64,000 nucleotides of DNA. It comes from Pandoraea sp. Its GTDB lineage: Bacteria; Pseudomonadota; Gammaproteobacteria; Burkholderiales; Burkholderiaceae. Positions 11,416-14,359 of the stretch are shown here, piece by piece. Every line of letters begins with the position of its first letter. The stretch's first letter is position 1. The notes beneath the pieces are model-generated. The model had not been told where the DNA came from. It saw only the letters and a program-made list of their open reading frames with translations, and did not search any database. The stretch lies in the NCBI GenBank assembly GCA_031291335.1, contig JARLJF010000020.1, positions 22,103-86,102 of the forward strand, read 5' to 3'. Made by a program: the position numbers and the translations under genes.

Positions 11416-11907
11416 ATGCTGTGGGAAATAAAAGTGCATAACATCGAGATCGATCGAATCGACGTCCGGCTGCTGGGGATTTTGCAGTCGAACGGGCGAA
11501 TTTCGAATCTGGAACTGGCCGAGGCGATCAAGCTGTCGCCCGCACAAACGCTGCGACGTCACCGTCGGCTGGAGGAGATGGGGGTGATCAGAGGCTACGA
11601 CACCCGTCTCGACGCGCAACGGCTCGGATTCAGCGTGGTCGCGTTCGTTCACGTGACGATGGAGCGCGGTCACATCCGTGACCTGTCGAACTTCAAGGGT
11701 CTGGTCGCGGAGTTGGCGCAGATTCAGGAATGCTTCTCCGTGACGGGCGATATCGATTACGTGCTCAAGGTCGTCGCCCGAGATCTGAAGGGCTTGTCCG
11801 ATTTTCTGCTCGATACGCTGATGCGCATTCCGGGTGTGAGCGCCGTCAAATCCAGCGTTTGTCTCGACGAGATCAAATGCACGTCGGCCGTGCCGCTCTC
11901 GGCCTGA
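11416..11907 (+). CDS. Lrp/AsnC-family regulator
   Basis: DRIDVRLLGILQSNGRISNLELAEAIKLSPAQTLRRHRRLEEMGVI; C-terminal RAM-like domain; divergent from hppD. Confidence 0.9.
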   Translation: MLWEIKVHNIEIDRIDVRLLGILQSNGRISNLELAEAIKLSPAQTLRRHRRLEEMGVIRGYDTRLDAQRLGFSVVAFVHVTMERGHIRDLSNFKGLVAELAQIQECFSVTGDIDYVLKVVARDLKGLSDFLLDTLMRIPGVSAVKSSVCLDEIKCTSAVPLSA

Positions 11908-12388: not shown

Positions 12389-12418
12389 TTGACAGCGCCC
12401 GAAAATCTGTGATCTTAT
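12389..12418 (+). promoter_or_regulatory. Candidate sigma70 promoter for leu leader/leuA
   Basis: TTGACA (12389-12394) - 18 nt - TCTTAT (12413-12418). Confidence 0.55.
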
Positions 12419-12425
12419 GTGGCAC

Positions 12426-12512
12426 ATGATCACCGCGCAATTCTCCCTCTCGCTACGACTACTAGCCCGTTCCACCGGGCTTGGTCCGTTGCTGCGCGCG
12501 TGCATCGTCTGA
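12426..12512 (+). CDS. leu leader peptide MITAQFSLSLRLLARSTGLGPLLRACIV
   Basis: 28 codons with 7 Leu, including three rare CTA; followed by an intrinsic terminator and leuA. Confidence 0.7.
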   Translation: MITAQFSLSLRLLARSTGLGPLLRACIV

Positions 12513-12551
12513 ATTCCTCACTGAAGCACCGCTGATTTTCCCCAGTTACGC

Positions 12552-12595
12552 CGACCTGAGCCCCGGTTCCTCCAACCGGCGGTCGTAGCTTTTTT
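12552..12595 (+). terminator. Attenuator terminator upstream of leuA
   Basis: CGACC...CCGGTT cctcc AACCGG c GGTCG tagc TTTTTT. Confidence 0.75.
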
Positions 12596-12646
12596 GCGTT
12601 CATGCGTCGTCCGGTTGACACTTTTGCCGACAATCGAGACAACGCC

Positions 12647-14359
12647 ATGCTGAAGAACCCCGCCACGAAGTACCGCCCGTTCACTCCGGTCAATATTCCG
12701 GACCGACAGTGGCCGAACCGCACCATCACGCGTGCACCGATCTGGATGAGTACCGATCTGCGTGACGGCAACCAGGCGCTGTTCGAGCCGATGGATGCCC
12801 AGCGCAAGATGCGCATGTTCAAGACGCTCGTCGCCATCGGTTTCAAGGAAATCGAAGTGGCGTTCCCGTCAGCGTCCGACACCGATTTCAACTTCGTGCG
12901 TGAGTTGATCGAAGGCGGTCACATTCCCGACGACGTCACCATCGAAGTGCTCACGCAAGCCCGCGACGACCTCATCGAGCGTACGTTCGAGGCCCTCAAG
13001 GGCGTGCCGCGTGCCATCGTTCACCTCTACAACGCCACCGCCCCCGAATTCCGACGCATCGTTTTCAATCTCGACCAGCCGGGCGTGAAGGCGCTCGCCG
13101 TCGGGGCCGCCACGACGATCAAACGCTGTGCCGACGCTGCACCGGACACGCAATGGACGTTGCAATACAGTCCCGAGACGTTCACCGGCACCGAACTCGA
13201 ATTCGCGAAGGAAGTTTGCGATGCCGTGTTCGACGTATGGCAGCCGACGCCGGAGCGCAAGTCCATCGTCAACTTGCCGGCCACGGTAGAAATCGGTACG
13301 CCGAACTTCTACGCCGACCAGATCGAGTGGATGCACCGCAATCTCGCTCGCCGTGATTCGCTGATCCTCTCGGTTCACCCGCACAACGATCGCGGCACGG
13401 CCGTGGCCGCGGCCGAACTGGCCGTGATGGCCGGTGCCGATCGCATTGAAGGTTGCCTCTTCGGTAACGGTGAGCGCACCGGTAACGTCGATCTCGTCAC
13501 GCTCGCGCTGAATTTGTACACGCAGGGTGTCGACCCGGGCCTCGACTTCTCGAACATCAACGAAGTGGCCCGCACCTCGGAAGAGTGCACGCAGTTGCCC
13601 GTGCATCCGCGTCACCCGTATGTCGGCGATCTGGTCTTCACCGCGTTTTCGGGCTCGCACCAGGACGCCATCAAGAAGGGCTTCGCCGTGCAGCAGCCGG
13701 ACACGTTCTGGGAACTGCCGTACTTGCCTATCGATCCGAGCGATCTCGGTCGCACGTACGACTCGATCATTCGCGTGAATAGCCAGTCGGGCAAGGGGGG
13801 GATTGCCTACTTGCTGGAGCAGGCATATGGCGTGCAGATGCCGCGTCGTCTGCAAGTGGATTTCAGCTCGGCCGTGCAGCGCCACACCGACGAGACCGGC
13901 GCAGAAATCACGGCGCCGCAGATCTGGCAACTGTTCCAGAAGGAATACGTGGAGTCCGGCGAGCCGGTCGCCTACATCGGTCACACGCTCTCTGAGCGCG
14001 ACGGCCGTCAGCACATCACGGTGACTGTCGACATTCAAGGTCAGCGCACCACGGTGTCGGGCACCGGTAACGGTCCGCTCGACGCGCTGATGCACGCCAT
14101 GCGCACGCCGGTGCGTGTGCAGCACTACGAGGAGCGTGCGCTCACGCAAGGGGCTGATGCTCGCGCCATCGCCATTGCAGAAATGGCAGGCGAAACCATC
14201 GTGGGCAGCGCGTTCGGCGTGGGCATCGATGCGAATCTGACGACGGCGTCGATTCGCGCGGTTATCAGCGGCATCAACCGTGCTTATGCCCGCAGCGAAG
14301 CGGATGCACAGGCCACGTTCTTCGATGCCGTGATGCGCGACGTCGCCAAGGCCGTCTGA
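12647..14359 (+). CDS. leuA: 2-isopropylmalate synthase
   Basis: [71 protein letters not shown]. Confidence 0.96.

Follow-up and report, generated by a model that had tools for sequence, protein, structure and literature searches.

The window analysed here, a stretch of 64,000 nucleotides, comes from a Pandoraea genome, and its leuA was 93–98% identical to that of Pandoraea genus-mates, two of which could be identified through named records as P. horticolens and P. pneumonica. The gene encodes a yeast-type 2-isopropylmalate synthase, and its true start is the ATG at 12647, ~135 nt 3' of the stop codon of a short leucine-rich ORF. A second, distant leuA homologue of the bacterial type (30% identity) is present on contig C166 of the same genome. 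Upstream of the leader promoter, an Lrp/AsnC-like regulator gene was identified by eye (11416–11907, plus strand), back-to-back with a 4-hydroxyphenylpyruvate dioxygenase-like gene. The coding features of the locus were as follows:

12426–12512, plus strand: leader ORF of 28 codons plus stop, with the translated peptide MITAQFSLSLRLLARSTGLGPLLRACIV; kept in 27/27 Pandoraea and in other genera
12453–12464, plus strand: putative control codons CTA CGA CTA CTA (the CTA codons being codons 10, 12 and 13), assigned from conservation and CTA rarity
12647–14359, plus strand: leuA, yeast-type 2-isopropylmalate synthase of 570 aa; TIGR00970 score of 787 bits, over the cut-off, with a start conserved in relatives

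The initial annotation had described a 28-codon ORF with seven Leu codons, three of them CTA, and the same ORF was recovered at those coordinates, preceding the 2-isopropylmalate synthase gene. It had also expected CTA to be rare in such a GC-rich genome. This was borne out, as CTA made up 1.5% of the Leu codons in 41 window ORFs; at that rate, the chance of at least three CTA among seven Leu codons is P ~1 × 10−4. The leader was present upstream of leuA in 27/27 Pandoraea loci examined. A homologous leader, MxxAQxxLSLxLLARSxGLGLLLRA, preceded leuA in Burkholderia (g11), Paraburkholderia (g20), the g8 lineage and locus L033, the genus names of the groups being inferred from named loci. The ORF and its start codon were kept in at least five genera, and the indels in the coding region were multiples of three. 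Conservation of the Leu codons had been proposed as a check, and the CTA codons were retained in relatives, with CTA at codon 12 in 62/62 and at codon 13 in 61/62 distinct leaders.

Across the 27 Pandoraea loci, the diversity was 0.010 at the third positions of leader codons 9–28, compared with 0.281 at the third positions of leuA and 0.467 in the sequence upstream of the promoter. Since the leader value is far below that of leuA, the RNA itself, beyond the peptide, is by this measure under strong constraint. A covariance model (R1) built from non-Pandoraea sequences only found positions 12450–12585 of the window with a score of 86.1 bits (E 7.6 × 10−22), the next-best match in the window having an E-value of 0.15. 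In an order-level search of 300 genomes, R1 matched six, once each, and the three of the six positions that were examined (G000, G050 and G081) lay just upstream of leuA. An Rfam scan of 12389–12600 at E ≤ 5 matched no family, Leu_leader included, and no published account of this leuA leader was found in the open-licence literature.

Leader ORFs of other kinds were also noted. The paralogous leuA genes (61% identity) had CTA- or Leu-rich leaders upstream too, for example MRSFPNTLRITSGRLARSLSLRLA. At loci L176–L185 (paralogous leuA, ~61% identity), a separate conserved leader family ending in LSLRLA-stop was located 294–390 nt upstream, with TTGAC ~36–37 nt 5' of the ATG. In the Ralstonia-like group g24 (L151–L167), a pair of leader ORFs rich in Leu and CTA stood in tandem, ~374 to 284 nt and 190 nt 5' of leuA. 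The first appears to be leaderless, with TTGAC 35–36 nt 5' of its ATG, and the second had a GGAG Shine-Dalgarno-like motif upstream and a strong hairpin downstream. A third family, ...LPIGC(R/L)A, was located at most ~240 nt from leuA in Cupriavidus-like genomes, some Pandoraea and a Herminiimonas MAG (L168–L173, L108), with the conserved nucleotides CTACCGATCGGTTGCC and no poly-U seen. The leaders of seven distant leuA loci (L051, L074, L081, L043, L068, L203 and L205) had a common C-terminal GLGLLLR/LLLLRLAR motif and differed in the rest, which suggests an old shared leader or a constraint at the level of the peptide. Many more distant leuA loci had no obvious leader ORF by the criteria applied.

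The RNA elements located within and downstream of the ORF were as follows:

12461–12469, plus strand: segment 1, predicted to pair with 12476–12485 at −11.6 kcal/mol; the pairing was recovered by RNAalifold in 62 sequences
12474–12494, plus strand: segment 2, the partner of segment 1 or 3, with a predicted RNA duplex with 12543–12567 of −25.7 kcal/mol
12543–12568, plus strand: segment 3, the putative antiterminator partner of segment 2, of which 12558–12568 is also the 5' arm of 3:4; from folds and duplex energies
12574–12584, plus strand: segment 4, the 3' arm of the putative terminator hairpin; CCGGT:ACCGG invariant in 62/62 leaders
12590–12595, plus strand: T6 tract of the putative terminator, read from the sequence; TTTTTT in 7/27 Pandoraea
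12611–12617, plus strand: possible segment 5, CCGGTTG, complementary to CAACCGG at 12573–12579; from complementarity and one double-sided change

The four short segments of the initial annotation were all present where it had placed them (AGCCCG 12464–12469, CGGGCT 12476–12481, AGCCCCGGT 12559–12567, CCGGTT 12563–12568 and AACCGG 12574–12579). Its 1:2/2:3/3:4 layout also stood, with the alternative helices kept in relatives, but the extents of the stems had been understated. The predicted 2:3 pairing is far longer than the one given there, joining 12474–12494 with 12543–12567. The CCGGTT:AACCGG stem of 3:4 was present and gained an extra outer stem (12545–12553:12580–12589) abutting the T-tract, giving a fold of −17.2 kcal/mol for 12545–12594. 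The folding analysis that had been suggested showed the leader region to be more stable than dinucleotide shuffles (z −3.1). Across the groups, the energies were ~−11 to −15 kcal/mol for 1:2, ~−19 to −27 kcal/mol for 2:3 and ~−12 to −14 kcal/mol for 3:4, and as modelled these are balanced for a switch.

The complementarity of 2:3 against shuffles gave p-values of 0.008 in Paraburkholderia, 0.02 in Pandoraea, 0.05 in Burkholderia and 0.2 in g8. For the three helices in the core clade, 94–97% of cells stayed paired, against 13–59% in slid controls. By their pairings and energies, the 1:2, 2:3 and 3:4 helices are mutually exclusive. The test for covariation that the initial annotation had proposed gave a negative result for these helices, since neither RNAalifold nor pair counts (which exclude alignment A2, where Pandoraea segment 3 was misplaced) revealed compensatory changes on both sides of a pair within the core clade. 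The stems therefore rest on invariance and complementarity. Loss of the leader ORF or of the alternative stems in relatives, which had been named as evidence against an attenuator, was not observed; the ORF, the CTA codons and the helices were conserved. In addition, GAAGC just 3' of the leader stop (window 12509–12531; A1 columns 104–108) did not vary among 62/62 leaders; it could base-pair with GCTTC/GTGC close to the end of the ORF, giving an additional hairpin between segments 2 and 3.

The ORF, the conservation of its CTA codons, the exclusive helices, the promoter-to-ATG spacing and the absence of a Shine-Dalgarno are seen in the sequence. From these we infer the transcription start, the stalling, the leucine response and the termination; a ribosome-mediated leucine attenuator controlling leuA, read from a leaderless AUG start, is the best explanation and a likely one. 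RNA polymerase would start at, or within 1–2 bases of, the leader ATG, and a ribosome would load on the leaderless AUG. When leucine is plentiful, the ribosome would pass the CTA codons and reach the stop at 12512, 1:2 and 3:4 would form, and transcription would end before leuA. When leucine is scarce, the ribosome would stall on the rare CTA codons and cover segment 1; the freed segment 2 would capture segment 3 in the long antiterminator, blocking 3:4, and leuA would be transcribed. The CTA codons adjoin segment 1, and their placement would let a stalled ribosome with the usual footprint mask segment 1 and leave segment 2 free.

This scheme resembles the leu attenuator (leuL; Rfam Leu_leader) of Escherichia coli and Salmonella in combining a leucine leader peptide, controlled through rare CUA codons, with overlapping alternative helices and a terminator before leuA. 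The Pandoraea leader differs in having no Shine-Dalgarno and, as predicted, no 5' UTR, in a U-tract that is unconserved in relatives, and in preceding a yeast-type leuA (TIGR00970) instead of a bacterial-type one (TIGR00973). A change of CUA to CUG lowered the sensitivity of the Salmonella leu leader, according to the discussion of Carter et al. 1986 in PMC1183508. The Shewanella leuA attenuator likewise has a leader peptide, an anti-antiterminator, an antiterminator and a terminator before leuA; its stems are reported to be supported by complementary mutations (PMC2659441), whereas the Pandoraea core-clade helices have no such changes.

The very high conservation of the ORF, together with the recurrence of GLGLLLR-like C-terminal residues in distant lineages, could instead mean that the main action of the leader is in trans, with its transcript serving as a small RNA or its peptide as a small protein. 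Such action has been proposed for rnTrpL/peTrpL of S. meliloti (PMC7298713). We consider this improbable as the main function, because the synonymous-site constraint points to RNA, the element sits upstream of leuA and leucine sensing explains the choice of CTA; trans action would in any case add to attenuation and not replace it.

An element that binds leucine or a protein, with sensing independent of leader translation, has its model in the actinobacterial LEU element, where a Leu-rich leader ORF also precedes leuA. The leuA family is shared, TIGR00970 being the actinobacterial type too. Leader-peptide mutations of S. coelicolor leuA defied the predictions of classical attenuation (PMC1262725). 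However, LEU is a conserved pseudoknot in which the Leu codons and the leuA Shine-Dalgarno together form the base stem (PMC1262725), and no such pairing was seen in the folds of the Pandoraea leader. Here, segment 2 is downstream of the CTA codons, ~135 nt separate the leuA start from the leader stop, and the invariant CTA codon 12 is outside every helix. From this geometry and from codon 12, the LEU-type model was judged highly unlikely and was set aside.

The promoter elements of the proposed attenuator were as follows:

12389–12394, plus strand: −35 element TTGACA, from sequence; TTGAC spacing conserved in 99/99 leaders
12410–12418, plus strand: extended −10 element TGATCTTAT (TGn + TCTTAT), from sequence; TG conserved across core genera
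12426, plus strand: transcription start predicted on the A of the leader ATG (± 1–2 nt), from the gap between the −10 element and the ATG, which is 6–8 nt in nearly all lineages

Both elements of the promoter TTGACA-N18-TCTTAT given by the initial annotation (12389–12418) were present at their positions, the hexamer occupying 12413–12418 with the extended −10 TG at 12410–12411. An automatic promoter and terminator scan returned no matches at the locus, because the −10 element is non-canonical and the T-tract is set apart from the short stem. In 99/99 leaders from ~15 lineages, TTGAC started 34–38 nt 5' of the ATG, against a background of 0.3% for window ATGs, and the −10-like hexamer ended 5–9 nt from the ATG. 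This set covered Pandoraea, Burkholderia, Paraburkholderia, g8, g15, g17 and the first leader of the Ralstonia-like g24, as well as Herbaspirillum, Cognatazoarcus, Denitromonas, Methylobacillus, the gammaproteobacterium Alkanindiges and others. It included two leaders of class II paralogues, all of which look leaderless though only two were counted. Seven more Leu-rich leaders from other gammaproteobacteria had been picked by their TTGAC spacing and were thus left out of the spacing evidence. In the core genera, the −10 hexamers were TTTCAT, TCTCAT, TTTGAT or TCCTAT, ending 7–8 nt from the ATG and mostly with the extended TG. One Ralstonia-like genome (L166) had ACG in place of ATG at the start of the first leader.

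No conserved Shine-Dalgarno was found upstream of the leader ATG across the compared leaders. The mean anti-Shine-Dalgarno pairing was +0.4 to −2.1 kcal/mol at the leader ATG versus −2.9 to −5.9 kcal/mol at leuA. Because the spacing of the −35 and −10 elements to the ATG is fixed and a Shine-Dalgarno is absent, the transcript is predicted to start at, or 1–2 bases from, the leader AUG, and the sequence strongly supports a leaderless or near-leaderless reading. The near-leaderless start that had been raised as a possibility thus became the best-supported reading on account of the fixed spacing. The ORF could be real and its initiation conventional, with a transcript starting further upstream and a 5' UTR present, and the leader ATG is indeed preceded by in-frame ATGs, at a distance of 9 nt in Pandoraea and 18 nt in Paraburkholderia. 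These ATGs fall within the −10 region, however, and the spacing in 99/99 leaders, the weaker anti-Shine-Dalgarno pairing before the leader ATG than before leuA and the unconserved upstream flank of the promoter (diversity 0.467) make conventional initiation unlikely.

The initial annotation had considered leaderless initiation odd for a stalling sensor, a concern that is softened by two precedents. The 5' end of the S. meliloti trpL attenuator transcript is at the leader ATG in a proteobacterium (PMC7298713), as predicted here; that system responds to tryptophan, is alphaproteobacterial and differs in sequence and structure. The ilvBNC leader of C. glutamicum encodes a branched-chain leader peptide with a start site 1 nt from the ATG, as cited in PMC11857589 from Morbach et al. 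2000; it is actinobacterial, with Val/Ile/Leu codons and another RNA and gene. Leaderless transcripts are known from B. cenocepacia, where a start-site map shows the primary start coinciding with the start codon in 72 genes and lying at most 10 nt away in 42 more (PMC4603805). Leaderlessness as a general habit of attenuators in this genome was considered and rejected, since the trpE leader has an SD-like GGAG. That leader (locus L195, G000:C96) is a probable Trp leader ORF, GTG...WPWRRWSC, located ~340 nt upstream of trpE and followed by GC-rich hairpins; with it, the genome appears to have a Trp attenuator of the conventional kind as well.

The attenuator had been called complete, and in the window the hairpin is indeed followed by T6 at 12590–12595 before leuA, so that the terminator in this genome looks intrinsic. 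Across the genus and family the T-tract is not conserved, and 'complete' says too much. Directly after the 3:4 hairpin, TTTTTT was kept in only 7/27 Pandoraea and TTATCT was found in 15/27, the others being intermediate, and the U-tract was weak or displaced in Paraburkholderia, Burkholderia and g8. The CCGGT:ACCGG stem was invariant even though the U-tract varied. In relatives, the stop step may either tolerate poor U-tracts or be assisted by Rho/Nus or other factors.

With the same leader-peptide sensor, the output across the family might thus not be an intrinsic terminator but a stop by Rho, or by a factor-assisted hairpin, in the C-rich stretch before leuA, or an effect on leuA translation. 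Most relatives have a weak or absent U-tract. The stretch from the leader stop to leuA is richer in C (0.35–0.39) than in G (0.22–0.26) in every genus and reaches ~250 nt in Burkholderia, and 3' of the hairpin there is a candidate fifth segment that could pair with segment 4. In this candidate 5:4 pairing, both partners differed at one base pair, which is A-T in Pandoraea and G-C in g20/g8, and the shuffle p-values were 0.01–0.07 in four of five groups and 0.17 in the mixed group. Conversely, being C-rich does not by itself make a Rho site, T6 is flush with the extended hairpin in this genome and six other Pandoraea, and the 62/62 invariance of CCGGT:ACCGG argues for the hairpin. A non-intrinsic output across the family is, on balance, a real but lesser possibility. 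Masking of the leuA start was judged unlikely and set aside, as the start is ~50 nt past the hairpin here and farther away in Burkholderia.

The leader is thus best regarded as a conserved and very probably leaderless form of known leucine attenuation, and not as a new principle. In textbook attenuators of Gram-negative bacteria, the leader ribosome is loaded via a Shine-Dalgarno. More tentatively, and somewhat short of an even chance, the yeast-type leuA genes of beta- and gammaproteobacteria may be preceded by leaderless, leucine-sensing leaders that form one old family, in which the ribosome would load as the 5' end emerges, the U-tract would have been lost repeatedly, and the stop would perhaps be achieved via Rho or the fifth segment. 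The leuA control region is annotated here for Burkholderia, Paraburkholderia, Pandoraea and Ralstonia-like genomes, where there is no Rfam family, and the leaders provide a natural series in which to ask how attenuation persists when the U-tract is lost. If the leaders of a major clade are leaderless, the pace of leaderless initiation relative to that of RNA polymerase would become directly testable, as would the question of whether conditions that favour leaderless translation tune amino-acid genes.
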